From Galerina marginata (lineage: Eukaryota; Basidiomycota; Agaricomycetes; Agaricales; Galerinaceae), in contig JAECYW010000011.1 in NCBI GenBank assembly GCA_023014335.1, forward strand, positions 1,116,001 through 1,180,000: DNA of 64,000 nt, read 5' to 3'. The notes below the pieces were generated by a model. It did no database searches. It saw only the letters and a program-made list of their open reading frames with translations, and was not told where the DNA came from. Shown here piece by piece: positions 199-51,252 of this stretch. Numbering within the stretch: the stretch's first letter is position 1; every line of letters starts with the position of its first letter. Both the position numbers and the translations under genes were made by a program.

Positions 199-3100
199 TT
201 ACACTTTGCGCTTTTTCTTAAGACATCGGTGTCCTGCTTCGCGATGGCGAACACATGTGTCCTCTGCTGCCTGATAACGCCGTCGGGCACAACCTGGTCT
301 CATGTCACCGTATTCGTCGTCCTCAGAGTCACGGCGCCTTCCCGTTCCCCGAGCAGGGTCCACCCCTCTTCGAGAGGCTGTGTATTTCGAAGAAGAAACT
401 CTGCGCCCTTGCATTCTGTCAACGTCTTCGTCCAAGGCCACATGTATCGGGATTTTGCTGACACTGTTCTGCTTTTTTTCGTCGGCTCCATCGTCTGAGG
501 GAACATATATGGGCTGTGAAATGGATGACTGGAATCGAGTTTCTTCTCTTTCATGAGCCTTGTCGTATGACACCGGCAGCAATTTGCGCCTACCAGTTTT
601 CTCTCTTTGATCTGCCCAGCCGTCGGAGTGAACAGGTATCTGTTGTGAGTTGGAAGACATAAGACGCCCTTCACCAATCTGAACTCCGGTCCTGACCACT
701 AAGTTTCTGGTTCCACTTTCGTTCTGCTCCATGTTCTGGATCGATTGTGGGAGTTATATGAAAGAACTCTTTCAATTATCGCCATCAACAATGAGAATGA
801 ACACTAACCTTGGAGGCGGCATAATTCAGGGAGTTCCGGCCACTAACAATACCAAGTTGAGCTTCCGCCCTCTGAACGTCGCCATGTAGACATTAATGAC
901 GACAATCGTCTTTGTAGGGACATAGATGATTAGGAATACTCTTTACATACCGAAATATAGGTTGTCAATGTAGACTGGATTATGGTAGATCCCTTGTAGA
1001 GTGAGTGCACCTTGTTGCTGAAGATTTGGTCGATTACATCTTGTCGGACTGCCGACTTCGATAAGATGAGGGGCAGGGTTCTGCGTGTTTGCATCATTGA
1101 TTTGTGTCGAGGTTGAGCATAGAAAAATCGTACCTTAAAACTGAATCTGCATCATAAGATGGCCTGTAATGTAGATCTGATAAGTAAAAATTGTAAGACA
1201 TGATTTTCGGAGGACATTCCCTGGTTTTCCTCCCGATTGCAGGAGGTAGCCTTGAGGCTTATATTTCAAAAGAGACAATGCCATGTCTGCATATTGGTTA
1301 TCGTCCACGTAGTATCCAATGTTAGAGTCGTCATCAAAGAGCTCCATTACAACCTGCAATAATTCCGGAGACGAATACCAAATATCCAGGCCTTGTTTAC
1401 TTTCCAGATCCCAGAGATTCGGAGAAACATGGAACATATACCGCAGGGCTTCATAATCGAGCAGTTTTGCTGGGCATGCCATCTGGACTAATGCAGCGAA
1501 AATGAGAAGATGCTTTAGGGCAGCGTCTTGAAGGTAAAATTCAATTCTCGGTTGAATAATACGTGCATATGCAGAGAGTTTATGCAGGTACAGAGTTTCC
1601 TTGTCTGGGAATGACTAAAGAAGAGACTCAGGCTTGGACTATAGAAGAAGAGTAGATGACCCTACCGAATGTTTGATAGCCTTCAGGACTGAAGGGGTAA
1701 GGTCTGAGAAACGATCTAACTCATTGGTGTTTGCGTTCCAAACGGAAAAATCAACAACGTTTGGGAGGTCCCAACATTCAATAGCCTTTCTTAGTTCGTC
1801 GGTTGGAGTGGCTTTTGAGAAGAAAAAAGAGCAGTTCTGATAAATGAATTGTTTGACAGCTGGTACGTTGAATGGCGTTAGTAAAAGTGAGGCAGTTTTA
1901 TTAGTCACCAAGCATACCATGCCTATTTTTGCATCCAGACGGCCGAAGAGTACATTGTTGCGCAAGGTCGGCGTAGACTCTTCCAGTGTCAATCCAGAAT
2001 TGACCTGACCTGGATCTGTCAAAAAGGTAATCTCCAAGTGAAACATGGAAGAAGCGAACTTCTTCATCACCAACAACAGTGAGAAGGCTTTCCAGATCGA
2101 AGAGAAAGTGTTGGATATCACCCGTGTCTAGGTTGAGAAGTTGTTGCAGAAAATTGGGCTTACGAAGCAGAGTACCAATATTTTCGTCCGGTATATATGG
2201 CGCAAGAAAAATACCTAGGATGCGAAGAGTATGAGGCAGGACCTCTTGCTCAACAGTCATAAAGACGGTCGAGTAAAGGTTATCTAATGGTTGGAAAGGC
2301 TTCAGGTTTCCAGGGTCAGTAGTCCCAAGTAACATATCTAGCCGTTTCGCTGGATTGTGTCTGATAGAACTGACAAACTTGCTGACCGTCGCAGCATAGA
2401 TAAATTGTCCGGAAGCGTTCGATACCAGTCTGTTGATGACATCTTGGGATGGCCATGGTGAATATGTCGGGAGGCAGAGTTTAAAGGGATGGTTTTCCTG
2501 AATTTGCCGGAAATTGTCGGTAAGATACGCCTTTATATCAGCATCCGGGTTGTAAGATTTGTCGAGTACCAATCGGAATGATAATTTGTTTAGTTCACCA
2601 CGGTCAAACGCGCCGCGAATGTGGTGTTCAGGACGGCTCGATACCAGCACCGAGAACGGCATTGGAAGCTCCAGTAAGATGCGACATAAGACTTGCAGAA
2701 TTTCACATTGCCTGTCAGGGTCACTGCATTCGTCCAGACCGTCGACAACGATGACTCGAGGAAATTGACCAGGGTTGAAGGACGGATCACGATTGTCGCG
2801 ATGAATGGCGCGGATTGGTGAGACTATTAAGGCCTGGGCTTGATGCCAAAGTGAAAGAGAAAAGATGAGGGGGTTTTGCTCCATTGCCTTCTCAATGTAT
2901 GGACGTGTTCGAGGAATAGAGAGAGCAAGCTGGTACGCAAGGGTGGCAATAAAATGATCTGAACTATTTCGACCAATGGCCGTTCGAAAGAAGGAGAAGC
3001 TACCAAGGAGAAAGCCCCCATCGAAGAGGGTGTGGGCGATTGTTCGCAAGATAGACGATTTACCTGACCCAGCTGGTCCATAAAGCCATATGATGGGGTA

Positions 3101-3411
3101 GGTAAAAATTAAGGTCGTTGCCCAGGCTTCGAGATAGTGAAGGATCGCGACACGAGTTCCTGGATGACATTTCGGTTGGTTTGAGACCTCGCTGGAATTG
3201 TGGAGTGCTCCTGCAGCAACTTGATTCTGAAGCTGCAAAAAACCTTACGGAACGAGTGATCATTCACATTCACCAGATGAGCTCGGTAAATATTCCGAGG
3301 GCAAAAAGGCGCACCTGTCGATGACTTTGAGCCTCCTTGAATATTGACAACATCTCCGGCCACATAAGTCGTCGAGCCGCCAGTGACGACGATGTTGCTG
3401 TTCCTATACAT
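199..3411 (-). CDS. NACHT-domain STAND NTPase with Trf4-like tail and C-terminal NLS
   Basis: A multi-exon minus-strand gene of roughly 900 codons. The proposed ATG (3411) begins a short exon reading MYRNSNIVVTGGSTTYVAGD, the usual glycine-rich lead of mushroom NACHT proteins. The main exon (about 3232-1918) has Walker A GPAGSGKSS and Walker B VIVVDGLDEC, the NACHT signature. It then continues through clear introns 1860-1917 (branch site CTAAC), 1615-1665, 1081-1133, 872-950 and 736-808. The last exon (735-199) is a charged, low-complexity tail ending LKKKRKV, an SV40-type nuclear import signal. That tail resembles the tail of the Trf4 gene at 54.6-57.1 kb. STAND NTPases act as nucleotide-switched signalling scaffolds, in fungi often in non-self recognition; the role here is inferred. 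The donor of the first intron (near 3315) and one junction near 1180-1210 do not resolve in phase, so a damaged allele is possible. Confidence 0.75.
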
Positions 3412-7458: not shown

Positions 7459-7512
7459 TATCCACCAATGCTACGAAGCTTCCACGTCAGGACCCCAACA
7501 TCCGAACAAGAA
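7459..7512 (+). promoter_or_regulatory. Conserved promoter module, copy 1 (CCAAT-containing)
   Basis: In the gene direction this 54-bp block starts TATCCACCAATG, then CGAA, GTCAGGACCCCAA and CCGAACAAGAA. It begins 260 bp before the ATG of fusion gene A. The same block with the same order of sub-motifs occurs twice upstream of fusion gene B (18231-18283 and 18401-18454). CCAAT is the known binding core of the fungal Hap complex. The other conserved parts would be binding sites for unknown factors. Confidence 0.7.
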
Positions 7513-7566
7513 ATATGTCAATTCTATTCGCCGCGTTGGCGCAATGCTGCAGGGTACTGACTGGAG

Positions 7567-7573
7567 TATAAAA
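7567..7573 (+). promoter_or_regulatory. TATA box of fusion gene A
   Basis: TATAAAA, 146 bp before the ATG and about 55 bp after the conserved module. Fusion gene B has the same box at almost the same distance (148 bp). This supports it as the core promoter and implies a 5' UTR of about 110-120 nt. Confidence 0.7.
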
Positions 7574-7718
7574 GCGACCAGAAAACGAGTTCCTAACGCC
7601 TCAAACTCAAACTTGGGTGACGCGCCGGTTTTGTTATTTGAAAAGTGGGATCTTCTTGCGTATAAACTGCTCATACATAATGACTGACTCGACTTTTTCA
7701 TAGAACACTACCCTCATC

Positions 7719-10292
7719 ATGTCCGCCGAAATCATCAACGCTGCCGTGGCTCATCATGCTGACTGGCCCGCACCTGGTACCAAAATTCAGAAAATGTCGG
7801 AAATCGACCTTCCCCGCAAATCCAGCGGCACCGAATGGTGGTACTACAATTTTCACCTTTCGCTCGTCGATGGACGAAAGGCGTCGGCTTTCATCGCCTT
7901 CTTTCGTACAGCCAGTCTCAAACCACCAACCTCACCGATATCTCCCCCAAAAGATGGCCCCGGGTGCGACGTCCAGCCACCAGTCGAGTACGAGCTTTGT
8001 CACACACATCTCCTGAATTTCGCTATTTCGATTCTTCCCGCCGACCAGACCGAGGAACCTTCTCCATCATCTTCAATGCCACAACCTGGGGCACCAGAAG
8101 ACGCACCCAAGGGCCAGTATTTCTTCACGAGCGCCATGGACTCGGACAACGCTGCGTTTATGTGCAGTATGCTTGAAGTCGAAACCCGCATGGATCCCCT
8201 CATCTTGCAGTCCATCCTAGAAGTCATGCGCGAAAAGAAAATCCCCGAACCAGATACCCTCATCCCAGGTGACGTCTTAGTTTCCGAGAAAGGTGTCCTC
8301 GACCTCCAATATGGCGATCTCGCGAGTGTCGTGTGCAGCACAAACTCTGACGGCGATGATGTGTACCACATTGTCGCTCGCGCTGTCGACGGTTCGTACG
8401 GTTTCGAGCTCGACCTTACCCCACGGAAGCCCCCCATCAACCACGGAGCGAACGGCGTCGTTCAGGGAGATCTTGTCTCCCCAGAGGATGGGATGTATTA
8501 TTGCTTCGTCCCTCGCTGCGAAGTATCGGGCTCTCTACTCATCGACAACGCATCAGTCGAGGTGGATAGCAACAATTCCATGGGTTGGTACGACCGGGAG
8601 TTCGGCGGCGGCATTCGAAAATGGTATCAGGCTTCAGCAAGCAATACGGAGAGTTCGTGGACGTGGGCCTCAGCGCAGCTGTCGAACGGTTGGGATCTGA
8701 CCATTTACACGCTGTGGGATGTCGACATCTACAGCGGAGAATCTGTCATCCGAGACAAACGAGCCATCGCCATCCAGGCAGACGGTACACGTATCGAGTG
8801 CGATGAACACAGTCTGGATCGCGTTGAGACCTGGACATCCATGCTCACTCTGAACGAGTATGGGACCAAGTGGGCGCTTGCTGTGCCCCAACTGGACATC
8901 CAGCTTTCGTTGGAAGCTCCGTTTGTTAAGCAGGAATTCAGGACAATGTGCGCTGGCAGGGGATATTGGGAAGGGAGAGTCTCCGTTGCCGGGACCATGG
9001 AAGGCAAGCAGGTGGACGGGTTCGGTTTCGTTGAGGTAAGTCTTCTGCACATAACCTGGCGAATTCTTGCTCATTATTCACAGATTGTCCCACCACAATT
9101 TGTCACGAAATTCGACCAATACCTGAAACGTATCAGCGCCTTGACTGCGGTGGAGGTGACCAAGATCTACCCTGATTATCTCATCGACGCAGAGCATGCT
9201 ATGAACGTCCTTGCCTTCCAATCTCCAAGTGATCCTGCCAATCCCGAGCCTGACACCCTTTCCCCACTTCGCTTTACCCAGGACATGTGCCTCGACACGC
9301 TGTACAAGCACTTCTTCGCACCTGTTCGCCATTTGACCGACCGTGGAGGAAAATCATGGCGATCCTTCCTCACTGTCGCATGTATCGCCGTCTTCGGTGC
9401 CGATCCCGAGCGCTTCAGACCCTTGCTTGCTGCCGCGGAACTGCTTCACACCGGATCACTCATCATCGACGATATTCAGGACCAAAGTCCCATGCGTCGT
9501 GGTGTCGACTCGGTGCATACCATCTGGGGAACGGCCACTGCCATCAACGCTGGAACGGCGGCCTACTTTGCATTCGAGACCGCGATGCGGTCAATGTCTC
9601 GCCACACACGACCTGAACAAACAGTTCGTCTTTACGAGCTCTTTTTCGAGACAATGCGAGCCGCGCATGCAGGACAAGCTCTGGATATCGCTGGCCAGCA
9701 GCGTTCCGATCTGGACGACATATTGGCGGGTCGTGTCCATCCTTCCATCCTCGAAAAGCGCGTCATCGCTGTCCACCGCCTGAAAACCGCTATCATTGCA
9801 GCGAACTTGGCTAAGATGTCAGCCAACATTGCCGAGGCATCCTCCGCGCAAATCAACGCTTTATCCACACATCTTGAACGCGTTGGAATTGCATTCCAGA
9901 TTATTGACGACGTCTATGACATTCGGGGATGGTCGCACGTGGGTAACACCGAAGGCCTCTCCGTCAAGAAGCCAGTGCTGAAGCGCCGTGGTGACGACAT
10001 CCGTTCTGGGAAGATCAGCATCCCGATCGCGAAGGCAGGATCGATGATGCCCCTGGACGAGGCGCAGTGGGTATGGGAAACGGTCCTCAGCAAGCCTGGA
10101 AACGACGACGTTACGACGCAGAAAGTTATTGACAAGCTAGAGGCCTATGGGATCGTCGACGAATGTGTGAAGGAAGCTCATAAAATGGTGGACGATTCAT
10201 GGTTAGACTTGGAGCCGCATTTGAAAGATAATCCGTTCAAGATCTACCTCCGCACTTTAGGCTGGTACTTGGTGAAGTACAACAGCATCTAA
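7719..10292 (+). CDS. Fusion gene A: AttH/CrtC lipocalin-like domain + polyprenyl diphosphate synthase
   Basis: Two exons, 7719-9035 and 9084-10292, encode 841 aa. Residues 1 to about 440 are an AttH/CrtC-type lipocalin-like region with the family's TEWWY signature (E39-Y42) and a GWYDREFGGG segment. Residues about 470-841 are a trans-prenyl diphosphate synthase: GGK for IPP binding, first Asp motif DDIQD (568-572) followed by RRG, GQALDI, second Asp motif IIDDVYD (714-718), and GKISIP. All metal- and substrate-binding residues are present, so it should condense IPP with an allylic diphosphate. Product length cannot be read from sequence. CrtC proteins hydrate carotenoids, and related fungal lipocalins promote cyclisation, so an action on the prenyl product is an inference. 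The phase-0 intron (48 nt) contains no stop; read-through would insert 16 residues at the domain junction. A near-identical convergent copy lies at 15439-18014. Confidence 0.9.
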   Translation: MSAEIINAAVAHHADWPAPGTKIQKMSEIDLPRKSSGTEWWYYNFHLSLVDGRKASAFIAFFRTASLKPPTSPISPPKDGPGCDVQPPVEYELCHTHLLNFAISILPADQTEEPSPSSSMPQPGAPEDAPKGQYFFTSAMDSDNAAFMCSMLEVETRMDPLILQSILEVMREKKIPEPDTLIPGDVLVSEKGVLDLQYGDLASVVCSTNSDGDDVYHIVARAVDGSYGFELDLTPRKPPINHGANGVVQGDLVSPEDGMYYCFVPRCEVSGSLLIDNASVEVDSNNSMGWYDREFGGGIRKWYQASASNTESSWTWASAQLSNGWDLTIYTLWDVDIYSGESVIRDKRAIAIQADGTRIECDEHSLDRVETWTSMLTLNEYGTKWALAVPQLDIQLSLEAPFVKQEFRTMCAGRGYWEGRVSVAGTMEGKQVDGFGFVEVSLLHITWRILAHYSQIVPPQFVTKFDQYLKRISALTAVEVTKIYPDYLIDAEHAMNVLAFQSPSDPANPEPDTLSPLRFTQDMCLDTLYKHFFAPVRHLTDRGGKSWRSFLTVACIAVFGADPERFRPLLAAAELLHTGSLIIDDIQDQSPMRRGVDSVHTIWGTATAINAGTAAYFAFETAMRSMSRHTRPEQTVRLYELFFETMRAAHAGQALDIAGQQRSDLDDILAGRVHPSILEKRVIAVHRLKTAIIAANLAKMSANIAEASSAQINALSTHLERVGIAFQIIDDVYDIRGWSHVGNTEGLSVKKPVLKRRGDDIRSGKISIPIAKAGSMMPLDEAQWVWETVLSKPGNDDVTTQKVIDKLEAYGIVDECVKEAHKMVDDSWLDLEPHLKDNPFKIYLRTLGWYLVKYNSI

Positions 10293-10783
10293 ATTACCTA
10301 CGCTTTTTTCTCGTTCTTATGATGCTTATGTTACATAGATGTCAGCTTTAGTAGAACTATCAGCTCCGTCTCTAATACAATCTACGGTCCTCGTATAACT
10401 GACTACGTTGGCGTCGTCGATCTGATAGCCCGGTCTTCTCCAACTCCTTCACTCCGTCAACGAGCGAATACGTCAACTGAAGTTTTCAATAAGACAAAGC
10501 ACAAAATTCGATATGGTTTACTTCTTACTGTATTGAACATCATGGCACTCAAAACACGCTTGGAAATGAAATGCCCGGTGTTGGTGGCACAGTTCACGTG
10601 GAGGGCCGCTGGAGCGCATCAAAGCCGTGGAAATCGAACAAGAATGTTAACGAAGGCTTATTATTTAAATATAGATATCTCTCTACTTCAAGTTCGGGAG
10701 TCGGGACTGCCATACTACTCTTACTTAATAAGTTAAAACAAACCAGGCTCCAGCCCAGCACCGAAGGCCCGTTTTCTTGCTTT
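10293..10783. other. 3' flank between convergent genes
   Basis: About 490 bp between the stop of fusion gene A and the stop of the surface-protein gene on the opposite strand. It should hold both 3' UTRs. No gene or structured element was recognised. Confidence 0.5.
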
Positions 10784-11804
10784 CTAGCAAGAGAGCATGA
10801 AATGCGATCCAAAAATGACGCTCGCAACCAGCAGTCCCCAGTGGGTTGCCACAGCCCCAACGGTCAAGCTTTCTGCGCTGCTGGATTTTCCGCCCGACAA
10901 CCCACCTAATGATCCACCACTATCGCCGTTGCCACTCGACCCACTGGAAGAGCCGTCGTCGTTACCGCCACTGGTGCTCGTCCCGCTCGAAGAAGTTCCC
11001 GATGACAAACCACCACTGTTAGTCCCCGTGTTGCCGTTTCCACTAGGTGTCGTTCCACCAGAAGATGCGGATGGCAAGCCACCACCGCTAGTGCCACTAG
11101 GTGTCGTCCCACCGGACGGCCCGGAAGATCCAGATGGCACACCACCATTATTACCGCCTGAATTGGTGGATCCCGAATTTGATGTGGATCCTGTAGTACT
11201 ACCAGTCCCGGCGCTGCTAGTTGAATCCACTGGGAACCCCGCTTGCGCACATGCTTGCTCGTACGCTTCATGCGGATACGGGCATTAGCTATGGCAATGG
11301 CAGGAAGGTGCGAGCCAAAAATAACACACCAGACTGAGTAGGCAGCGTAAAAGCTGGAGACGGCGCATTATCTAACTGCTGCTGTTGGGCGAGACATGAT
11401 TGACACCCAGGGATAGCCTGTGCAATGTCCGATCGGCATCCACATTGCAAGTCGGTGCTGCTGCAATTCTATGTGAAAATTATGGGAATTCAAACAGACA
11501 AATCGTGGATGATGAGTTTGACTTACGGCGATCTCGGCGAATGGCCCACACTGCGTAAGGCATGCTTGTAGTTCTTTCTGTGCTTCTGGCGAAGTTTGAG
11601 TGGTTTGGCGCCTGCTCAAGGCCGTGAGGACGGGTGACGGGAGCAAGTGACCCAATCCCAATACTGGCTCGGGATGAGGGGACGCGGCTACTATATTGAC
11701 CAATTTTGACCTCTATAACCGTGCCATAATAGCGAGAACTTGAACAACTCACCGTGCTCTAGGCATAGCGACAACAAAAGAGCGAGGATAGTGAAGGGAT
11801 GCAT
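10784..11804 (-). CDS. Secreted eight-cysteine (CFEM-like) Ser/Gly-rich GPI-type surface protein
   Basis: Reading the minus strand from ATG 11804, the first exon gives a signal peptide (MHPFTILALLLSLCLEH). A 61-nt intron follows, then an exon ending ACLTQCGPFAEIA, an intron, and an exon with NCSSTDLQCGC and GCQSCL. A last intron with branch site CTAAT leads to YEQAC and a long Ser/Gly/Thr-rich stalk. The C-terminus is hydrophobic (GLLVASVIFG), as in GPI-anchored proteins. Cysteine spacing is C-x3-C-x8-C-x3-D-x2-C-x-C-x10-C-x2-C, then a distant C. This resembles the CFEM pattern known from fungal surface and haem-binding proteins. I infer a cell-wall or plasma-membrane protein; haem binding is not shown. 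It has two relatives just downstream in the window. Confidence 0.75.
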
Positions 11805-12553
11805 CGTGAACAATGGACTGCAGCACAAGGAACAGAGGTGTATCTAAGGCATCCAAGGGAGGCACAAGTCATTTTATTTCTAGGACCCAAGTGTCGGCGA
11901 TGCATATATAAAAAGGCACAATATGAATGGAAAGAAAAGCCATGGCAATAGCAAGACGTTCAACTGTTCGAGCGCCGATCTTTCAAATAAGTGTCGAACT
12001 GTCTGTCATTCAATCAAATTCTTAACCAACTGAATGATCTAATCTTCAAGTCTCCGTTCTGATCGGCAACACATCCCATCAATTTTGCAGACAGAACTGG
12101 CAGCAGTGGAGTCAAATCGACAACGAAGCCATCGAATTGCATATGTAGACGCTGTGGATAGAGTATCGCTCATCCATGAGAGTTGGAGACTGTGTCGGGC
12201 ACTCACACTGATAGTAATTCAACTCTGATGGGAAAACTTACTGAATTAGGCAACTTCATTCCTCTTCCGGGTAACTGCACATTACATAACAGCGGTTGAT
12301 CAAATGATTTGACAATACTCGTTTCTGAGCGTTGGGAGGTATTTGGAACCTCCGGATTTCTCATACTTTATTGTTCATCTCGCATTAATGACTGATCGGA
12401 CTGTCACATTAGCACACCAGCTTACAGCCTATTATAGTTTGGGATAATTTGATAGCCGTTAGAGCCACGAAGACACTTCCTCGAGAAAATGAAGCAGTTT
12501 GCAAGATAAAGAACGAAGCATAAATGAATTAGATCCAGCCTCCTCCTGCGAAG
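11805..12553. other. Spacer between the two surface-protein genes
   Basis: About 750 bp with no supportable gene. It must contain the promoter of the gene starting at 11804 and the 3' UTR of the next. A TATATAAAAA stretch near 11906-11915 lies upstream of the 11804 start in that gene's direction, but its reverse complement is not a clean TATA box, so I do not assign it. Confidence 0.35.
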
Positions 12554-13339
12554 CTATAACAACAGAACCGAGCCAACGACAACACCGCAAATCCACATCA
12601 GCAACCCCACTCGATAAGCCCAAGAGTCGGCGGTTACTGTTCCATAAGAAGTTTTTGCAGTAAGGCCCAGTCCTCCAGTATTTCCGCCACTGTTCGCGTT
12701 TCCGTTCGAAGCCACACCTCCGTTCGACTTCGAAGCTGGCACGGTATTACCATTGTTGTTTTGATTGGTCGTCAAACCGCCGGACCCCACATTTGCACAT
12801 TGTTGGTATTCTTGAATTGCTTGTTAGTCGACTACGCAAATAATTTCACAGCAACAAATAAACTCACGAGTACCATCGGGGACAGTAAGCGTCGTTTGTG
12901 GTTCACTTGCTATCTTGGCAGCAGCAGTAGAAGGGTCAATGGCGCTTTCGTTATTTTCAAATGCCTGCTGCTGCACTAAACATGCCTGACAACCTTTGGC
13001 TGCTGCTCCTATAATGGCACAGTCACATGGGTTTCCAGAACCACAGTTCTAGAAAATGGCTCGCATATTAGTGAAGTAGGGGGTTGATAAGACAAAGAAA
13101 GAAAATGCATTACAATTGCTTGGATTAACGCGCTACACTCAGTGTTACATACAGTTGGAAAAGTAACCTTTGATTGACGTGCGGTTAATGTACGTGTGAC
13201 TCCAGCATTAACAGGAGTGAGCGCAGCACTGACGGCTTAAATTTCATTTTGTATGAGATATGATTACAATATTTATGCGATGCCTACCGTGAACAACGAG
13301 GAGTATGAAAAAGAGGGTGTTGATGGCGCTGGAGGGCAT
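12554..13339 (-). CDS. Second secreted eight-cysteine GPI-type surface protein
   Basis: A paralogue of the gene at 10784-11804 with the same exon plan. Exon 1 encodes the signal peptide MPSSAINTLFFILLVVH and splices at 13292. Exon 2 carries the N-terminal region with VCNTECSALIQAI. After an intron, exon 3 carries NCGSGNPCDC and GCQACLVQQQ. The last exon begins YQQCANVG, continues with an Asn/Gly/Ser-rich stalk and ends in a hydrophobic segment (VGLLMWICGVVVGSVLLL) typical of a GPI signal. The stalk is much shorter than in the neighbour. Eight cysteines are kept, but the Asp two residues before the fourth Cys of the CFEM pattern is not. The location between the two fusion genes is striking, but the function is unknown. 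Confidence 0.7.
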
Positions 13340-13799
13340 AAGGAACGACTTAAGCTGGGTGCACAGCACTAAAGATGCAGAGGGAAGAATGATACTGACG
13401 ATTATACGTTCCACGTTAGTGTGGAAGATATAAAGCATGTCGCGAGAGGCCAGACAGTCGACAGTCGTGGAAATGACATGTGAAGCGTCAGCGCTGAAAG
13501 CCATCAAGGTATCTGTCACCAACGCTTTTGAGATATTTCGGTACACGGCGCAAGGCCGGTGGACAAATTGTAGATAACCCATTGCACAGTACATAGCATT
13601 GCACAGATGTTGGGTCAAAATCGTGTCTGCATCATTAAAATAGAACGTGTGAGCTGAGGGTACGCTCCTCAAGGTTATAAACCACAGGAGTATATGAGCT
13701 CGAAGCCGAGCTTTAGAGCTGCGTTAAGAAACATGAGGCGCCGCTCCCGATCCTCTGGTATTTTGCGATTCCACTGGAAGTCGATGCGACATGGTTGTT

Positions 13800-14240
13800 C
13801 TTACTCAGCCAGCCGCCCAACACCAGGCTTGGACAAACTCGTTGATACTTTATAAGTCGGTCCGTGTGTTAACTTGGACTTCCTTCTTCAAGTAATAGTG
13901 AACAGAAACTCACGAGCGACATTAGTAGTTGTCTCAGGCTCATTGGTAGTAGTAATACAAGAGTCTACGCCAGCGGCGGAGTTCAGAGCGGTCAAGGAGT
14001 TGGATTGCTTTATGGATCTTGTAAAGTATAGGCACTGGGTATTCAACCCGCAATTCTGTTACGCAAAAGGTGTCGTGTTAGCACCGAGTATAATACTAAT
14101 AAAGGTGGCCGTACGGGTAGCGTAAAGAGAAAACTTACCAGCGCATTGACCAGTGATTGGCATCGGAAGGGAAAGTTAAATCTCCTTGCCGGGCGTGCAA
14201 GGCATTCGCTCGCTGGATGAGTGACGCGTTAACCTCTTTA
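13800..14240 (-). pseudogene. Broken third member of the surface-protein family
   Basis: The minus strand keeps the intron-exon rhythm of the two neighbours. One exon ends CQSLVNAL, an intron gtaagt...cgtaacag follows, then an exon starts NCGLNTQC and runs to ITTTNEPETTTNVA before a gtgagt donor. A piece reading KYQRVC occupies the place of YQQC. The first exon would have to change frame between LTFPS and CQSLVNAL, and several cysteines (including the C-x-C) are gone. No convincing signal peptide was found upstream. Best read as a relic of a tandem duplication. Confidence 0.5.
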
Positions 14241-15438
14241 AAAACGATTAACTTTCTAGTCAGCATAAAGGAATTGTCCATGATGGGTAGCGTATTGTGT
14301 GAGACTGGGCAGCAGCCAAAGATGTGGACTGTGATGTGAAAAATCAAATATTTATAACGGTCCATGCTCGCTTTAGAAGCTTCTAGGCTCGCAGCCAGTA
14401 ACACCCCATGATGAGCGCTGAAATATGTCAAAATCAGTTGTTACTAATCAGCACAAGTGGCAATTAATTTCGCACCTGCAGACTCACGAGATGGTGTAAT
14501 GACAATTACCGAAACATTTACACGAACAGTATTTCTAGATACGGCATGACCAGCATGATCCAGAAGGGTGCGCTTGGACGGGAAAGCCATGGGCCATGGC
14601 CAGTGGATTCAAAAATTGAGGAAGCAACCAGATCCGATTGCATCAAAGACGTTTTGCTCGTCCATAAGTAGCCTCACGACGCCTGAAGGAATCACAGAGC
14701 ATGGTATGTGGCCCAAAGTCTTCAAACAGGAATGAGCATGGCTAGGGAAGGATTAGAGGCGGGGCTCAGCGAGGCAAACTTATGACATACTACGATGCGT
14801 GAAGGCGGACCACATACACCCCAATAGGGCCAACCGCTTCTTTTTAGAGTTTTTTTCGCGATGACAATCAACGAGCTTTGTACTTTGACGCCATAAAATG
14901 TGGCACTTCGATGTCGAATTGAAGAGGGACTGCCGCCAAGTCAAATTGGGGATGGGACCGTCGGCTTACGACGTTGTCAAAGTTGTCCAACGAGGGCCGT
15001 AATACGAGCACTGTACATCGTTATAGCCCTGCTATCTATCACACACGCGCTTTCATCCATTGAAGATGTGAGGGCGTGCAAGCAAGCGGGCCAAGAAGCG
15101 GGCAGAAGAATGCGCGATAGTGGATGAAAACAGATCTTGGTTTAGCCAGTTACCACTAGTCATGCTCAGTAGCGCGACTTAGTCATCACATGTTCACAGG
15201 AGCACTTTCTGAGTCTTTCTCCAGAGTTTTTCGGAGAATTTTACCGCTGCCCTTACCGCTGCCTCATCCGCAATACGAGTAAAATCACTACAAGGAATAT
15301 GAAAATGCGCAAGTGAAACGACGTTTGATTAACTGCTAATATAGTCGGCTACACGAGAACGAAAAATGTACAGTAAAAGGTACGGAAGGCGAAGATGACA
15401 TTTGTAGATACAAAAAGGAAAATGGCATAGGTTGTATT
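14241..15438. other. Spacer before the 3' end of fusion gene B
   Basis: About 1.2 kb without a supportable gene. It must hold the 3' UTR of fusion gene B (stop at 15439). Open frames here are short and lack recognisable domains. Confidence 0.4.
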
Positions 15439-18014
15439 CTAGATGCTGTTGTACTTCACCAAGTACCAGCCTAGAGTACGGAGGTAGATCTTGAACGGAT
15501 TATCAACGAGATGCGGCTCCAAGTCCAACCAGGAATCGTCCACCATTTTATGAGCTTCCTTCACACACTCGTCGACGATCCCGTAGGCCTCTAACTTGTC
15601 GATAACTTTCTGCGTCGTAATGTCGTCGTTTCCAGGCTTGCTGAGAACCGTTTCCCATACCCACTGCGCCTCGTCCAGGGGCATCATCGATCCTGCCTTC
15701 GCGATCGGGATGCTGATCTTTCCAGAACGGATGTCGTCACCACGGCGCTTTAGGACTGGCTTCTTGACGGAGAGTCCATTGGCGCTAACCACGTGCGACC
15801 ATCCCCGAATATCATAGACGTCGTCGATTATCTGGAATGCAATCCCAACACGCTCAAGATGTGTGGACAAAGCGTTGATTTGCACAGAAGACGCCTCCGC
15901 AATATTGGCTGACATTCTACCCAAGTTTGCCGCAATGATGGCCGTCTTCAGGCGGTGAACGGAAATGACGCGGCTCTCGAGAGTGGATGGGTGGACGCGG
16001 CCTGCCAATATGTCGTCCAGATCCGAGCGTTGCTGGCCGGCGATATCCAGGGCTTGTCCTGCATGCGCGGCTCGCATTGTCTCGAAAAACAGTTCGTAAA
16101 GACGGACTGTCTGTTCAGGCCGTGTTTGGCGACCCATCGACCGCATCGCGGTCTCGAATGCAAAGTAGGCGGCTGTTCCAGCGTTGATGGCAGTGGCCGT
16201 TCCCCAGATGGTATGCACTGCGTCAACACCACGACGCATGGGGCTTTGGTCCTGAATATCATCGATGATGAGGGACCCAGTGTGAAGCAGTTCCGCGGCA
16301 GCAAGCAATGGTCGGAAGCGCTCAGGATCGGCACCGAAGACGGCGATACATGCGACAGTGAGGAAAGATCGCCATGATTTTCCCCCACGGTCGGTCAAAT
16401 GGCGGACAGGTGCGAAGAAGTGCTTGTACAACGTGTCGAGGCACATGTCCTGCGTAAAGCGAAGTGGGGAAAGCCGGGTGTCAGGCTCGGGATTGGCAGG
16501 ATCACTTGGAGATTGGAAGGCAAGGACGTTCATGGCATGTTCTGCGTCGATGAGATAGTCGGGGTAAATCTTCGACACCTCCACCGCCGTCAGGGCGCCG
16601 ACGCGTTTCAGGTATTGGTCGAATTTCGTGACAAATTGTGGTGGAACAATCTGCGAATAATGAGCAAAATCCCGCCAGGTTATGTGTGAAGACTTACCTC
16701 AACGAAGCCGAACCCATCCACCTGCTTGCCTTCCATGGTCCCGGCGACGGAGACTCTCCCTTCCCAATATCCCCTGCCGGCGCACATTGTCCTGAATTCC
16801 TGCTTAACAAACGGAGCCTCCAGCGAAAGATAAATATCCAGTTGGGGCATAGCGAGTGCCCACCTGGTCCCATACTCGTTCAGAGTGAGCATGGATGTCC
16901 AGGTCTCGACGCGATCCAGACTGTGTTCGTCGCACTCGATACGTGTACCGTCCGGCGGGATAGCGATAGCTCGTTTGTCTCGGATGACAGATTCTCCGCT
17001 GTAGATGTCTACGTCCCATAGCGTGTAGATGGTCAGATCCCAACCGTTCGACAGCTGCGCTGAGGCCCATGTCCATGAGCTCTCCGTATTGCTTGCTGAA
17101 GCCTGATACCACTTTCGAATGCCGCCTCCGAACTCCCGGTCGTACCAACCCATGGAATTGCCGGCATCCACCTGGACTGATACGTTGTCAATGAGGACGG
17201 AGCCTGATACTTCGCAGCGAGGGACGAAGCAATAATACATCCCATCCTCCGGGGAGACGAGGTCGCCCTGAACGACGCCGTTTGCTCCATGGTTAATGGG
17301 GGGCTTCCGTGGGGTAAGGTCAAGCTCAAAACCGTACGAACCGTCGACCGCGCGAGCGACAATGTGGTACACATCGTCGCCGTCTGAGCTCGCGCTTCGT
17401 ACAACACTGGCGAGATTACCATATTGGAGGTTAAGAACCCCTTCTTGGGAAACCAAGACGTTTCCTGGGATGAGGATGTCTGGTTGGGGGATCTTCTCCT
17501 CGCGCATGACTTCTAGGATAGACTGCAAGATGAGGGGATCCATACGGGTTTCTACTTCGAGCATACTGCGCATAAATGCAGCGTTGTCCGAGTCCATGGC
17601 ACTTGTGAAGAAGTACTGAGCCTTTGGTGCGTCCTCAGATACCCCTGACGCTGGCATTGATGATGCTTGCGTCGGTTCTTCGAGCGGCTCAGCTGGGAGG
17701 ATCGAAACGGCGAAATTGAGGAGGTGCGTATGGCAAAGCTCGTACTCGACCGGTGGTTGGCCGTCGCTCCCGGGGACCTCCTCCGAGTACGCAATCGGCG
17801 AGGTTGATGGCTTGAGGCTAGTCGTTCGAAAGAAGGCAATGAAAGCCGATGCCTTTCGTCCATCGACGAGCGAAAGGTGAAAGTTGTAGTACCACCATTC
17901 GGTGCCGCTGGATTTGCGGGGAAGGTCGATTTCCGACATTTTCTCGATCTTGGTACCGGGTGCGGGCCAGTCGGCATGGTGAGCAACAGCAGCACCGATA
18001 ATTTCGGCAGACAT
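15439..18014 (-). CDS. Fusion gene B: second AttH/CrtC lipocalin-like + polyprenyl diphosphate synthase
   Basis: Convergent paralogue of the gene at 7719-10292. Exon 1 is 18014-16698 (439 codons) and exon 2 is 16650-15439, giving 842 aa. The single phase-0 intron sits at the identical residue but is 47 nt, so it cannot be read through. TEWWY, GGK, DDIQD (569-573), RRG, GQALDI, IIDDVYD (715-719) and GKISIP are all intact. The two proteins differ by scattered substitutions. Most changes fall in two Pro/Ser-rich loops of the lipocalin-like half (about residues 75-90 and 110-135) and around the segment after the second Asp motif (SHVGNTEG versus SHVVSANG). One extra Arg occurs in the inter-domain linker. 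Both copies look functional. Promoter architecture is shared, with the upstream module doubled here. Confidence 0.9.
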
Positions 18015-18161
18015 GTTGAGGACAGTGTTCTGACGAATAGGTTTAGTCAGTCATGAACGAGTTATCGAAAGAATACGGCACCTTTCAGCTTATGAAGTCT
18101 GCGGATCACCAACACTTGATTCTGAAGGTTGTTGGTACAACCCCCTCGTCTTCCGGGTAGC

Positions 18162-18168
18162 TTTTATA
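18162..18168 (-). promoter_or_regulatory. TATA box of fusion gene B
   Basis: TATAAAA on the minus strand, 148 bp before the ATG at 18014. This matches fusion gene A in sequence and spacing. Confidence 0.7.
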
Positions 18169-18230
18169 CGTTTATTCGTTCAGTGTTCAAAGGTCTCTCC
18201 CTGGCCACGCGGCCAATAAAATTGACGTGG

Positions 18231-18283
18231 TTCATTTCGAACGCTGGGGTCCTGACATCGACAGTTCGTAGCATTGGTGGATA
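18231..18283 (-). promoter_or_regulatory. Conserved promoter module, copy 2
   Basis: On the minus strand it reads TATCCACCAATGCTACGAAC, then GTCAGGACCCCA and TTCGAA. It starts 269 bp before the ATG of fusion gene B. It matches the module before gene A in order, orientation and spacing. Confidence 0.7.
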
Positions 18284-18400
18284 AGAACGAAGGCAAGACA
18301 CGTTGGTACCACCGCCCTTACTTGCTAAAAGGAAGTAGATCAGTTGAGAGTCCTTACTCGTTTCGAAAAACATACGGAAAAACACTGGAAAGCGACATGG

Positions 18401-18454
18401 TTCTTGTTCGAATATTGGGGTCCTGACGAGGAAAGTTCGCGCCATTGGTGGATA
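18401..18454 (-). promoter_or_regulatory. Conserved promoter module, copy 3 (tandem)
   Basis: A second module, 170 bp further upstream of fusion gene B and in the same orientation. It has TATCCACCAATG, GCGAACTTTCC, GTCAGGACCCCAA and TTCGAACAAGAACC. In its last third it is closer to the gene A module than copy 2 is. Confidence 0.7.
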
Positions 18455-22264: not shown

Positions 22265-23600
22265 TTACGACGGAGCGTTGCAACCGGGGACTCCGGCTAG
22301 CACACAGTCACGCCATGCTGCGTACAAAAGTAAAACGAAGTTCTGCCCTTCTGGACTGCCCGCGGTATATGGCGTGCGGTCTCCCCATCCAAGCGGGTTC
22401 ACAGCAGGCGTTGCAGTGCCGTTGGACGTAATATGGCCATTAGAGGCCAAAGTAAGTCGGATGTGTTCGGCCCATGCAATATAAGTTTGTATAGTGGCGC
22501 TGGAAAGCGGAGATGCCGACCCTTGGGACGAACACAAGGTAGAAAGACGGTAGGCAACGCTAGCGAGTAGCGCGCTCCCAGACGTCTCGCCGAACCAGGT
22601 GGTGTCGTCGATGTAGTTTCGGAGAAAGCCCTGGTCAGGCGATGCTTTCATGGCTGCGTTCAAAATTTCGCTGATTAACTGCACGAGGGATGCAATGGAC
22701 TGCTGGGTCCAGGCAGCTCCACCAGAGTTTGCGAGTAAGGATGATGGCGCTTTGACGAGTGTGGCGAGGACGCGCATGGTCCCAGCAGCTGCCCAAGCGT
22801 TTCCGGTTGACCAAATTCCTGGATCCATGTTGACCGGGCCGAGGATGTGGGTCCACAGGCCGGAAGCGGAGGATGGATGGGTCTTGGGAGGTGTGGCGGT
22901 TGTGGTGGTATTTGCGCGTAAAGCTTGCCTGTACAACAGACATTGTTGCACTGCGATTTGAAGTATCGTTGCATTGTTCGACGCTACTCCGTAATACGCA
23001 AGGAATGGAGGTGCCATATATATGAAGTCGGCCCTTACCAACGAAAAATAAATTTGGGTAAGCACAAATGCCGATCTAAAAAATTTAAAGCCACTCTTAC
23101 CAAAGCTCAGCGTACATGACTCTATGGGAAATAGCACCGTTGGGCCATTTTGGCGCTTGATTAAGGACATAGAGCGCTTCTGCCTTCGCGGCTGCTGCGA
23201 ATGATGCGTTGGTTGTTCCTAACAACACTGCGCTAACGCCCAAGCTTGCAGGATCTCCCACTGCGCCGTCTCCATCACTCAAACCATTTGGTGGTGCGGC
23301 AATGACAATCTTCTGCTTTGCATATGTCAAGGACGGGGAACTACTGGGGGTTACGGTGGGCACTGGGAAGGGGCTATTGCCAAAAACCGCAAGAGGCGCG
23401 TCAAAGAGCTCAAGTAGAGCCTCGGATGCCGTTCCATACTCCCAAGAGTGCGATGGCAGGGCAGTAGCCCGGGCCAGCACTGCATTGACATCAAAGCCAG
23501 GCGAAAAGGGTATCGCGGTTGACGTAGCGCGGGTCGAGGCCGACACATGGGTAACCAGGAGTATGGTGCTAAGCGCCAACGAAAACACGCAACAGTACAT
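22265..23600 (-). CDS. Secreted glycosidase of the six-hairpin type, GH105-like
   Basis: Two exons (23600-23101 and 23033-22265, intron 67 nt) give 422 aa. The ATG at 23600 starts a signal peptide (MYCCVFSLALSTILLVTHVSA). I preferred it to an upstream in-frame Met because the preceding residues are Pro/Ser-rich and not signal-like. The mature part contains ISHRVMYAELWADFIYMAPP and WSTGNAWAAAGTMRVL, hallmarks of fungal GH105-like (alpha/alpha)6-barrel proteins. It ends GWGDRTPYTAGSPEGQNFVL. GH105 enzymes remove unsaturated uronic acids from pectin or rhamnogalacturonan fragments, so a role in plant polysaccharide breakdown outside the cell is likely. The substrate is not determined. Confidence 0.8.
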
Positions 23601-27700: not shown

Positions 27701-29007
27701 GACATATGGTCGAATTGCGGGTCGAATTCATCCGTTTCTGTACGAGGATACGAAACAAAGCCTTGGTTATATAGCTTTTCAGCCAACTGTTCTTTGATCA
27801 GCATCCCCTAGATTGTTATTTTAGACTCGAAGTACGCACATCTAAAACCTTCTTTGGGGCCAGTCTAAGCAGCCTCGATCCAGCTTTCTGCAGCTCCACG
27901 GTCGTCAGAGGCAATGGTTTCCTAGTGATGAGATGATCTAGCAGAATGTCGATTTTATGTAGGTAAACACCGTTCATACCATTTCTTGGTCATCTTGTTT
28001 GTGACTTTGGTGACAATGGCCGGGGAGTTTTCTATAAGCGCGTAGAGAGTTCCGACTACGGCCTGGTCGAAAAGATGGTTCCGTTTCCAGTTGAATTTCG
28101 TTTCTTCGTCTCCTTGTGATGCACTCTGCCGTGTCAACGATAGGTATATATACCAGAATGTCTCCGGGTCAAAGTTCTTGACTAGTTTGTACCGCTGCAC
28201 TACGAAGCCCAGTGTAGGAAACTGACATGGACCTTTATCGATATAAATAAAAGATAAGCAGATATTTGAAGGAGGCTAACCGTATGACACGACGCTCTTT
28301 TCTTCTGCAATTTGCGGAACGCGACCCTGCAGAGTCAGGGTTTGTAATCTCGTGAATGCTGCCCCGACCTTCAGGTCCAGAAATATACGAGCCTCCACCG
28401 CGTCCGCTTGTCTTCTGTCGAGCTCAACCGGATGCTGTGCTGCGTTATGAATCTGTCTATCCAAAGGATCATAAACTTCAGCCTTAAGCAGACAAAAGGC
28501 GACATACTGGGCAATAATCGCGCTAAACCTCGCTCGCTTGATTCGAATAGTCGGTTTGGCCTTGCGACAGACTCGAGCCACCTCCATGCCGATGTGTTCC
28601 CCTTCCCTATCACAATCTGTCCAAATCATGAGGACGTCCGCACGTCGCGCCTGCGTTAGGAGATTTTGTTCAATGGCTTTCTTGTCCGAGGGTATCAGCG
28701 TCTCAACAGGAGCGTCGAAGAGTTCGAATGCATCGCAGGAGTTCCACTTCCGATGTCTGTCGCCAAAATCATGCGCCGTCAGGTGTCCCAAAACCGCCGT
28801 GACAACGAAGAAAGACTGTGTATGTGGGTAGTCGAACTCATAGTTTTTGATGTACTGGGACTGGCTATTGTGCTTTTCATGGAATCAGGACAACTCGGCG
28901 CGTTAAAATGACAGATATTGACGCACTGTGGTGTATTGACCCCCTGATAAAATTTGAGTGATGGATTTCGAAATTGAAGGCTTTTCAGCGACACATAAGA
29001 CCCTCAT
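24756..29007 (-). CDS. TOP3: DNA topoisomerase III with RGG, GRF and zinc-knuckle tail
   Basis: A many-exon minus-strand gene. It starts MRVLCVAEKPSISKS at 29007, the canonical type IA topoisomerase N-terminus. The toprim motif is WTDCDREGEHIG (D-x-D-x-E) and the catalytic tyrosine lies in GFVSYPRTETDEFDP. HPVELDRRQADAVEAR and GIGTDATIAQHIETII are also diagnostic. After the core come a Gly/Arg-rich segment (about 26640-26400), two GRF-type zinc fingers (GKKFWGCTKGPSGCGFFQW and GRRFWKCRKADHASCGFFEW), and four CCHC knuckles of type CFKCxxTGHWSS. A basic Ser/Gly/Lys tail follows. It passes single strands to resolve recombination intermediates, usually with a RecQ helicase. One 51-nt intron near 28,450-28,510 is in frame and stop-free. 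It is recognised because IIAQQIHNAAQHPV is restored by splicing. The start is 237 bp from that of the divergent UTP25 gene. Confidence 0.93.
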
Positions 29008-31717: not shown

Positions 31718-32106
31718 TTTCTGTGTGGTGTATCTTTCAACGAGACTATTGGATTATCGTCCTGCATAACTATTTGGTTGGAATGACGCCGATAATTATA
31801 ATGGTGTTGTTAGTATTTTAGGATGACGATGGTGGTCCTGTTGGGTTTTTGTTTCAAATCTCTTACTGACTCTCATTGCTTCTTGGCCCCTGCTCAGGTT
31901 ATGTCTAACGTTTTGACTTCGAACCTCTCGATGAAAATTTTTGCTGAAGAACATTCGACTCGCCAGTGGGATATTTTTCGGTGCTGGAGTCTAGATAAAA
32001 TTCTGTGAGCGCTTGAAATTCACAACAAATGCGATTTAAGTTAGGCCTCAAACCGTTTTAAATTCTTTTCTATTGAGGTTCCACTTTTGTAAGCCCACAT
32101 CAGCGG
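31718..32106. other. Intergenic, UTP25 3' flank
   Basis: About 390 bp with no gene; contains the UTP25 3' UTR and the upstream region of tRNA-Val. Confidence 0.6.
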
Positions 32107-32178
32107 GGTCGATGGCGTAGTTGGTTATCGCATCTGTCTAACACACAGAAGGTCCTCAGTTCGAGCCTGGGTCGACTC
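32107..32178 (+). tRNA. tRNA-Val (anticodon AAC)
   Basis: Folds as a cloverleaf. The acceptor stem is GGTCGAT with GTCGACT, and the D arm contains GCGTAGTTGGTTATCGC. The anticodon stem TCTGT/ACAGA has loop CTAACAC, giving anticodon AAC. The T arm is CTCAG-TTCGAGC-CTGGG. No intron. The exact 5' end could shift by one base. Confidence 0.9.
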
Positions 32179-32516
32179 ACATTTTTGAAAGTTATTCGAC
32201 CGAGGCACTATCTGATATTTAGGATGCAGATCAAAGGGCAGATTACAATTTTTTTCTACTGCAGATAATGACTAGTAATGAATCTCCAAAAAATATGGTA
32301 CAGATATACAAGAGCGTCATGGTCGACTATGTATTTACACATCTAAGTATATCAATGAAGTATATCGTACACCGTCACATTCATACACCACGCCCTCCAA
32401 CCAAAAACCAAGCGGCAGGTACTGTCAGCCATCACCATCCGCGCAGCAGGCATATATATACATCTCCGTCGCCAACCACACCGTCATACAACCTCGGCAT
32501 TCGCTCCCGGGTGGGC
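32179..32516. other. Spacer between tRNA-Val and the ATG3 stop
   Basis: AT-rich, about 340 bp. The start of the tRNA 3' flank and the ATG3 3' UTR lie here. Nothing else was seen. Confidence 0.5.
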
Positions 32517-48967: not shown

Positions 48968-51252
48968 ATGGCCGGTGTACTGTCGAAAGACTCTATCTCT
49001 ACGCTTGCTATTGGCCTGGTGGCCGTCTTTCTGCTGCGTACGCTAGTTGAGAGAATTAGACGGCCAAAGTACTTGCCCGGACCTCGTCGACTTCCGTTTG
49101 TCGGTAATCTCTTTGATATGCCAGAGACAGAGAGTTGGGTTACATACAGGCAGTGGAAAGATACTTATGGTAAGTTTACCCTTTCCCAAACAATTTGGAG
49201 AATATCTTTCGACATTACACACAGGCGACGCTATCTATCTTGAAATTCTAGGCAGTCCTCTCGTGATCTTAAATTCTTATAAGGCCTGCATCGAGCTACT
49301 GGAGAAAAGAGCTGAGATATACTCCGATCGCCCTGTTGGAACCATGGCAAATATAATGTAATTATTTTTTTCAAAGCTTCCTCGTTGACGCTCAACTCGT
49401 TTTTCTTTCACTTAGAATGGGATGGAGTCAGTCTGTGGTTATGGCACCGTACAATGATCGCTGGCGTCGGTTCCGCAGAATTTGTGCACAAACAATGAGA
49501 AAGGACGCGGTTAAGCAATTTCACCCTATACAGGAGAGAGAGGTAGCGCGTTACCTTGGGACGCTTTTAAAAGATCCCAAGCACTACATGGCGAACTTCC
49601 GGTTGTGAGTCCAATCATATCTGGCCCATTCATAAGTGGGGAGCACTTAGTTTTTACCCGGTGCAGCACTGCTGCTCGCAGTCTACTCTGGAACATCTAC
49701 GGCATTCAAGTCAACGAGTCTAACAGCCCAGTGAGCCCCGCTTAGCCGTCTGCAAAGCTCTGTGCGACTTTCTCATCCTTTCCTCTCCAGATCATCACTA
49801 CGGCCGAAAAGGCGATGGCAATGGGCGTGTTCGCAGCACAACCTGGAAACTTCCTGGTGGATTTTTTCCCTGCACGTAAGCCGTGTATGAACCGACCTTG
49901 ACCTCATATCCCTAAAGGATCCTTCTATTATTAGTTGCCCATGTGCCCAGCTGGTTCCCAGGTACTGGATGGAAAGAATTTGCCCGAAAAGGACGTATTT
50001 TGGCCTATGAAATGGTTAACATTCCGTTCGACATGACAGTCAAGGAAATGGTGAGATTTTCAAGAAGGTGGTTTTCTCCATCGGCCGTCTGACTTGAATC
50101 GCAGAAATCGGGAGACCATGAACCGTCTTTCACTTCCATCAACCTCGAGAAAAATGAGGACGAAGATATCGTCAAATGGTGTTCTGCAAGCATGCTCTCA
50201 GGCAAGTTAATTCCTAATTAATGCGAGTACATTATTGGCTGATTTGCGTCACCACCTCCATGTAGCTGGAACGGACACAGTAGGTTCTACTCAGTTTATT
50301 CTCTCTGTAACCGCCATTCATAAATTTCAAGAGTGTGGCCTCCATGCATAACTTCTTCTTAGCGATGGCTCTCAACCCTGATATTCAAAAACGTTGTCAA
50401 GCTGAAATCGATTCGGTCACTGGAGGAAGTCGTCTTCCAGTTATCGCAGACCGCGACAATCTGCCCTACGTGAACGCCACAATGTGGGAGCTCCTTCGAT
50501 GGCAACCCGTTTCCCCGCTAGGTATGAGCCCCGTCGAGAATGCCGTTCTCTTCAATGACCTGGTTTGCTGCTCTTTAAAATAGCTTTGCCTCATCGGGTG
50601 ACGAAGGACGACGTTTACAATGGTATATCGTTATTTTGGTATTTTTTGTTGTTCAAATGGTTTAATTCGTACTCTAGGATGCTTTATTCCTGCTGGAAGT
50701 GTTGTCATGGGAAATACCTGGTAAAATTTTCGACAATACCTCGTCGTTCTTACTTACTGACTTTCCTCAGGGCTGTCGCCAGAGATCCAGATTTGTTCGA
50801 AGACCCCGATAGGTTCAACCCTGATCGCTACCTTCCCTATTTCGACAAAACTATTCCTCATGATCCCACAAAACTGCCTCTAAATCCCAATGAATTTGCG
50901 TTTGGATTTGGCCGTCGGTAAGTCATGATAATGATACCTTCGACTCTTTTTAAATTGGCCGTGATTCCATAGTATCTGCGCTGGATTGCATTATGCCGAA
51001 ACCATGTTCTTGATATCCATGGCTCGCGTTTTAGCTACTTTCGACATCGGCAAAGAGACGGATCAAAATGGGAACCAAATCACTCCAGAACTGAAATTTA
51101 ATTCTTCCATTGTTCGGTGAGCAGTGAACGAATGTAGGACTTTGGGGTTTGGGATTGACAAACCACGTTTCAGGGAACCTTTCGATTTCGAATGCTCTAT
51201 CAAACCCCGTTCCGAAGCTGCTGAAGCTTTGGCTATAGGATCCCTTTATTGA
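48968..51252 (+). CDS. Cytochrome P450 (OrdA-like), first of two
   Basis: The N-terminal membrane anchor is MAGVLSKDSISTLAIGLVAV, followed by the Pro hinge LPGPRRLPFVGNL. The I-helix reads SAGTDT, the K-helix ELLR (E-x-x-R), the PERF region FNPDRYLP and the haem motif FGFGRRICAG. About ten short introns separate these pieces; all joins checked by eye keep the frame. One intron (50202-50265) starts GCAAGT, a GC-AG intron, placed by the need to read SAGTDT. All catalytic residues are intact, so a working microsomal monooxygenase is expected, needing an NADPH-P450 reductase. The sequence type resembles CYP families expanded in mushrooms (OrdA-like). Substrate unknown. Confidence 0.9.

Follow-up and report, generated by a model that had tools for sequence, protein, structure and literature searches.

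A family of fused CrtC-like lipocalin and prenyl diphosphate synthase proteins represented by a convergent gene pair in Galerina marginata

We describe two genes, A and B, in a 64,000-nucleotide stretch of the genome of Galerina marginata (assembly GCA_023014335.1, contig JAECYW010000011.1, positions 1,116,001 to 1,180,000 of the forward strand; hereafter the window, to which unprefixed coordinates refer), each of which encodes a CrtC-like lipocalin domain fused to a complete prenyl diphosphate synthase. These proteins belong to a family with two domains that is widespread and uncharacterised, and in which the front half groups with prenyl hydratases; a preliminary description of the gene pair is thereby extended to a family not confined to this fungus. 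Based on the active sites of both halves we propose, with confidence that is evenly balanced, that each gene specifies one bifunctional protein, which would synthesise a prenyl diphosphate of the C20 type and protonate the far end of the chain, with hydration as the most likely result and cyclisation as a possible one.

Gene structure, selection and active sites

Gene A runs on the forward strand from an ATG at 7719 to a stop codon ending at 10292 (841 amino acids, aa), and gene B on the reverse strand from an ATG at 18014 to a stop codon ending at 15439 (842 aa). Both are intact and lie tail to tail, separated by 5,146 bp, which agrees with the preliminary description of a convergent pair on opposite strands about 5 kb apart. 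Each contains a single intron, in the same place and exactly between the two domains: in gene A exon 1 (7719..9035, forward strand) encodes the lipocalin half (residues 1-439), followed by a 48 nucleotide (nt) intron (GTAAGT...CACAG, 9036..9083) and by exon 2 (9084..10292, including the stop codon), which encodes the synthase half; the corresponding parts of gene B on the reverse strand are 16698..18014 (again residues 1-439), a 47-nt intron (GTAAGT...CGCAG, 16651..16697) and 15439..16650, also with the stop codon. The frame of gene A stays open across its own intron, and as the 47-nt intron of gene B includes an in-frame TAA, a frame common to both genes arises only after splicing. The bacterial fusions discussed below run continuously, whereas the intron of genes A and B stands at the domain junction.

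A domain search of the gene A frame recovered PF07143 (CrtC; 49.3 bits against a cut-off of 22.5), PF17186 (Lipocalin_9) and PF00348 (polyprenyl_synt), each scoring higher than its curated cut-off, and the two pieces of gene B gave the same three matches. The motifs TEWWY, DDIQD, DDVYD, GGK and GKISIP are found in both genes. The gene models and domains hence bear out the preliminary description, which had named these motifs and had read two intact genes with a shared intron position, each joining a lipocalin-like half to a complete synthase.

Purifying selection acts on both halves. Genes A and B have an identical residue at 777 of 841 aligned codons, and third positions account for 189 of the 265 differing bases. 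The nonsynonymous and synonymous rates (dN/dS) are 0.0547/0.4827 by NG86 (a ratio of about 0.11) and 0.0599/0.383 by YN00 in the lipocalin half, and 0.0259/0.3593 (about 0.07) and 0.0253/0.2912, respectively, in the synthase half. The inverted similarity consists of the gene itself (7680-10294 versus 18054-15436, 89.2% identity) and short upstream blocks. A Galerina marginata protein (P0001) is closer to gene B (96.3% identity) than to gene A (92.0%), a relationship also seen in the trees, and therefore the A/B duplication is probably older than the split between the window genome and the source of P0001.

The C-terminal half matches the PF00348 fold and retains all catalytic motifs of trans-prenyl diphosphate synthases. 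In both genes these include the two Asp-rich motifs (in gene A DDIQD at 9468..9482 and DDVYD at 9906..9920, forward strand) and the Lys/Arg residues that bind isopentenyl diphosphate. The small residues before the first Asp-rich motif fit a geranylgeranyl diphosphate (GGPP, C20) product, and no NCBIfam equivalog reached its cut-off on this half (best 113.1 bits versus 468). Unfused synthases, typed by reading their motifs, are encoded elsewhere in the 69.3 Mb assembly of the same genome, in which the window is C3:1116001-1180000, namely a farnesyl diphosphate type (contig C5), COQ1 types (C42, C12) and GGPP types (C24, C43), and as the last are present the fusion is not the sole source of GGPP.

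The N-terminal half is predicted to fold into beta-barrels, in line with its preliminary reading as lipocalin-like. An alignment of 81 proteins (69 of 134 proteins and 12 proteins from genomic loci) showed that Glu39, Trp41, Trp290, Asp292, Trp314 and Trp316 are each kept in at least 75 of the 81. We compared these with the CrtC of R. litoralis, taken from an annotated photosynthesis cluster, in which six catalytic residues could be aligned (His239, Trp241, Tyr266, Asp268, Trp283 and Trp285; Trp110 is not among them). Asp292, within Trp290-Tyr291-Asp292 of gene A (8586..8594, forward strand), is aligned with the catalytic Asp268, and Trp314 and Trp316, within Trp314-Thr-Trp316 (8658..8666, forward strand), with Trp283 and Trp285. 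By this alignment the putative proton donor and the two Trp residues that would stabilise the cation are kept, and the His is not.

Distribution and common descent

A search with the gene A frame retrieved 16 proteins, 14 of which contain both halves as judged by length and coverage. Ten of these 14 are named, and come from Galerina, Gymnopilus, Hypsizygus, Phlegmacium, Dendrothele, Moniliophthora and Paramarasmius, all of them Agaricales, and their gene models span 97-100% of the query; the survey of Agaricomycetes that had been suggested thus recovers the same fusion in further members of this order. Close pairs also occur in Hypsizygus marmoreus (P0004/P0005) and Paramarasmius palmivorus (P0009/P0011), each of which is its own duplication in the trees; the members of a pair lie on contigs with the same stated length, perhaps on one and the same contig.

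A broader search with six of the fungal fusions and more remote relatives of theirs retrieved 714 proteins at E <= 1e-3 (7989 candidates scored). Among the matches listed 120 contain PF07143, PF17186 and PF00348, and eight of those have an additional PX domain. This phosphoinositide-binding domain is N-terminal in the fusions P0014, P0017, P0018, P0024, P0029, P0039, P0052 and P0062, where it is possibly a membrane address. Scanning of bacterial and archaeal genome contigs yielded at least 80 retained loci, and in at least 31 of these (L001-L030 and L034) the fusion occupies a frame of more than 600 aa. These 31 derive from Myxococcales, Polyangium, Bacteroidota (Flavobacterium, Spirosoma and a metagenome-assembled genome, MAG), MAGs called proteobacteria, Streptomyces, Nocardiopsis and Actinorugispora. 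With the central genome counted, the fusion was present in 44 of 377 genomes of the phylum around a Myxococcales MAG, in 5 of 395 of the phylum around a Bacteroidetes MAG (three at 26-27% identity) and in 6 of 394 of the class around Nocardiopsis; in the order around Spirosoma it was present in 1 of 291, which is the already known copy. The distribution is patchy by these counts. A new fusion restricted to fungi was considered and rejected, given the relatives in Actinomycetota, Myxococcota, Bacteroidota and the PX-domain group.

The fused halves share common descent. In the tree of synthase halves all 83 sampled fusions fall into a single clade that excludes the 14 unfused synthases (one CrtE, and 13 of the 49 loci at which a synthase alone was matched), with a value of 99 in the Shimodaira-Hasegawa-like approximate likelihood ratio test (SH-aLRT), the sole support measure in these trees, all of which are quick searches. 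The lipocalin-half tree has the same main groups, with 13 fungal, 16 PX-like and 6 actinobacterial rows forming one clade each. Fungi, actinobacteria and P0117 group together in both trees (SH-aLRT 97 for the lipocalin halves, 99 for the synthase halves); relatives of P0117 are named as Pseudonocardiaceae MAGs, Actinomycetota MAGs and Kitasatospora. In a midpoint-rooted, full-length tree of 53 chosen rows, some with trimmed ends, the fungi adjoin 17 actinobacterial or P0117-like rows (SH-aLRT 100) and the PX-like rows join other bacteria; P0142, placed beforehand with the actinobacteria, fell among the PX rows. The PX-like group comprises 16 rows chosen in advance, eight of them with a PX annotation, and because of this domain it is probably eukaryotic. 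The simplest reading of these trees is that one old bacterial fusion was followed by two passages into other groups, the agarics and the PX-like group.

Proposed reaction, alternatives and genomic context

From the residues and relatives of the two halves we infer the reaction, the chain length and the passage of the chain from synthase to barrel. The metal-dependent C-terminal synthase would most likely make GGPP, and the double barrel at the N-terminus, which is of the same kind as AttH and kievitone hydratase, would receive the terminal isoprene of that chain. There Asp292 would protonate the terminal double bond in a Trp-lined cavity and the barrel would quench the resulting cation, with hydration to a tertiary alcohol as the likeliest outcome by analogy with CrtC and kievitone hydratase. 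The idea in the preliminary description that one half makes a prenyl diphosphate and the other modifies or cyclises it is partly supported and appears broadly sound. Published work on CrtC places the chain in a cavity between two beta-barrels and describes Asp268, Trp110, Trp283 and Trp285 as critical (PMC12402844, as far as available), and Ala at His239, Trp241, Tyr266 or Asp268 is reported to inactivate the enzyme (available part of PMC4717167).

In bacteria the product may then be oxidised, glycosylated or exported. The fusions of Spirosoma (L009) and of a Bacteroidetes MAG (L030) are each accompanied by an LMF1-type gene, a glycosyltransferase of the GT28/MGDG type and two cytochrome P450 (P450) genes, with an FkbM methyltransferase in addition in Spirosoma; the LMF1 (lipase maturation factor) family gene is directly downstream of the fusion (L009:12251-14536, L030:12220-14505). 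In a proteobacterial MAG (L011) the fusion is found with genes for a P450, an epimerase, a kinase-like protein and a glycosyltransferase that shares 44% identity with its L009 counterpart. Of 10 actinobacterial loci, 7 have genes for an ABC ATPase and a permease-like protein next to the fusion, and these ATPases share 61-95% identity with the one in L027; a second actinobacterial search found both genes in 6 of 6 loci, of which one or more had already been counted in the first set. In L034 the genes abut, each beginning at the end of its predecessor. The putative permease matched ABC2_membrane_3 below the cut-off in two of four tested cases and gave no match in the other two. MMPL transporters are encoded close to the fusion in two of the remaining three actinobacterial loci (L021 and L024), and generic ABC genes of 29-37% identity, which occur elsewhere too, were left out of the count. 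No shared pathway genes were seen around the fusion in Flavobacterium and most Myxococcota loci; loci L105-L145 offer short flanks only.

Several observations weigh against hydration by the fused protein. His239 of CrtC is not kept (position 258 is Asp in 46 of 81 proteins, Gly in 11 and other residues in the rest), Trp241 is replaced by Phe or Tyr in 75 of 81 (position 260) and Tyr266 by Trp in 79 of 81 (position 290), such that the HxW, YxD and WTW of CrtC correspond to (Gly/Asp)x(Tyr/Phe), WxD and WTW in the fusion. Asp292 itself is Glu in five actinobacterial rows and Gln in P0016, and a Polyangium copy (L016) is devoid of the WTW motif. AttH (NE1406, PDB 2ich), which has no synthase half, possesses the Asp too and has no assigned activity, and hence the Asp alone is no proof of hydration. 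RgCrtC converted just 4% of geranylgeraniol, and the available portion of that report names no diphosphate among the substrates (PMC12402844). The P450/GT28 set is absent from 28 of the 31 bacterial loci, L009, L030 and L011 being the other three, and the nearest P450 matches found in the window, among the best 92 of 362 candidates, are about 40 kb from the gene pair (50341-50526 and 61648-62253).

The cyclase, Diels-Alderase, lyase and holder readings are nevertheless ranked below the hydratase. It is rather unlikely that the barrel is a proton-initiated terpene cyclase, in which Asp292 would protonate the terminal double bond and rings would close without water, amounting to class-II-like chemistry in a lipocalin fold built like the fungal chimeras. 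We know of no lipocalin-fold terpene cyclase, and CrtC and kievitone hydratase, the members of the fold with known prenyl chemistry named here, both hydrate. In favour of a cyclase, loss of the CrtC His could promote exclusion of water, 3 of the 31 loci have P450s and a glycosyltransferase next to the fusion, where Pfam recognised no further terpene cyclase in the neighbours that were scanned, and the CrtC authors, in the available parts of their papers, liken its mechanism to that of squalene-hopene cyclase (PMC4717167, PMC12402844). We assign a similarly low probability to other chemistry or none, with the barrel acting as a lyase on a phosphorylated tertiary carbon, as a pericyclase-like catalyst or as a holder passing the prenyl diphosphate on: the lyase and pericyclase folds look markedly more remote than that of kievitone hydratase, and a pure holder is unlikely to keep the six residues conserved in at least 75 of 81 proteins. 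That the halves are separate transcripts and the fusion a reading artefact, as the position of the sole intron exactly at the domain junction might suggest, is very improbable in view of the 31 one-frame bacterial loci, eight whole genomes with one stop-free open match each, the 47- and 48-nt introns that yield the same frame only once removed, the span of the ten fungal gene models, and two open reading frames from metagenomic agarics (P0012, P0013), which diverge from the family immediately behind the same GFVE, the effect that an intron left in place there would have. An origin by chance or from faulty gene models was likewise rejected on the shared intron, dN/dS and one-frame bacterial relatives.

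Beyond the hydratase proposal, we tentatively suggest, as a broader and less secure possibility, that the family represents a further type of terpene-forming enzyme, in which a hydratase or cyclase with a lipocalin fold, driven by an Asp and needing no metal, is permanently linked to a prenyl diphosphate synthase of its own. On this view the fusion arose long ago in bacteria, was acquired independently by agarics and the PX-domain group, and would make a class of diterpenoids, hydrated at the terminal end or cyclised through protonation, for which no genes have so far been assigned. If this is true, hundreds of proteins named for their prenyl synthase half alone would be self-contained makers of modified terpenoids. 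The family would also offer an enzyme, coupled and independent of cofactors, that hydrates terpenes at the terminal end, and an instance of a metabolic enzyme passed from bacteria into two other groups. Such fusions can readily be overlooked: a large survey of fungal prenyl synthases was restricted, according to its available part, to proteins of 200-500 aa (PMC7484799), a range that excludes a protein of about 840 aa.

Searches of the Galerina assembly uncovered further copies. C25:128213-130790 is a two-piece open fusion copy (59% and 71% identity) with two conserved Trp residues changed; copies at C42:1302657-1305208 and C42:1317707-1320282 contain stops, in the lipocalin part or throughout; and fusion pieces occur at C1:2996539-2997626, C1:3023044-3023529 and C12:311156-312289. 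An element with a CCAAT stretch precedes gene A by 222 bp before the ATG (7459..7496, forward strand) and gene B in a nearer (18246..18283) and a farther copy (18417..18454, both reverse strand); its outer edges, 7459 and 18454, are the limits of the region as preliminarily described. These three copies in the window compare with a mean of 0.00 over 100 shuffles. A 35-place motif of the element has four copies in the whole genome, all with 0 mismatches (3 allowed), against 0 for a reversed control, and all four precede a fusion gene or fusion piece; the fourth (C1:3023752-3023786, reverse strand) lies 222 bp before a C1 piece, the spacing seen in gene A. The element could serve in regulation or be left over from duplication.

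No pathway gene adjoins the pair among its window neighbours, and PF19086 (terpene synthase) has no match within the window. Between genes A and B are Ser/Gly-rich frames with no Pfam match (10787-11284 and 12557-12823, both reverse strand). Other window features are a NACHT-type ATPase (1904-3244), a GH88-like protein (22268-23218) and a topoisomerase (28279-28884) on the reverse strand, and a tRNA-Val (32106-32180) and a poly(A) polymerase-type protein (55585-56361) on the forward strand.

Comparison with known systems

No account of this fusion was found in the open-access literature, subscription journals being mostly outside our coverage; the preliminary description likewise named no characterised protein with this exact architecture. 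CrtC resembles the front half in its PF07143 domain and in the equivalents of Asp268, Trp283 and Trp285, and is known to act on prenyl chains of lengths up to C40; it differs in being unfused and in its low identity (16-19% for R. litoralis CrtC). The label of CrtC proper was rejected for the fusion, as His239, Trp241 and Tyr266, three of the six aligned catalytic residues, are not matched. Kievitone hydratase of Nectria haematococca (PDB 7a0q, 7a0t) is 17% identical to the front half and shares with it the fold and a W-Y-D-R stretch around the aligned Asp; like the fusion, it has no His at the place of CrtC His239 in a profile alignment. Given the absent His and the W-Y-D-R stretch in both, the fusion is closer in look to kievitone hydratase than to CrtC, although kievitone hydratase is a single-domain protein acting on an isoflavonoid, unlike the fusion with its prenyl synthase. 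The lipocalin-fold Diels-Alderases CghA, Fsa2 and Phm7 gave no sequence-profile match at E <= 10 and appear more distant from the barrel of the fusion than kievitone hydratase.

GGPP synthases and other trans-prenyl diphosphate synthases have the same fold and all the catalytic motifs of the rear half; in the tree the fused halves stand apart from the 14 unfused ones as a separate clade. Fungal prenyltransferase-terpene cyclase chimeras, such as talaropentaene synthase, likewise have a C-terminal prenyl diphosphate synthase with a second domain in front of it. The fusion shares this two-part plan; the second domain of the chimeras is an alpha-helical cyclase, whereas that of the fusion is, by Pfam and predicted structure, a beta-barrel of the CrtC kind.

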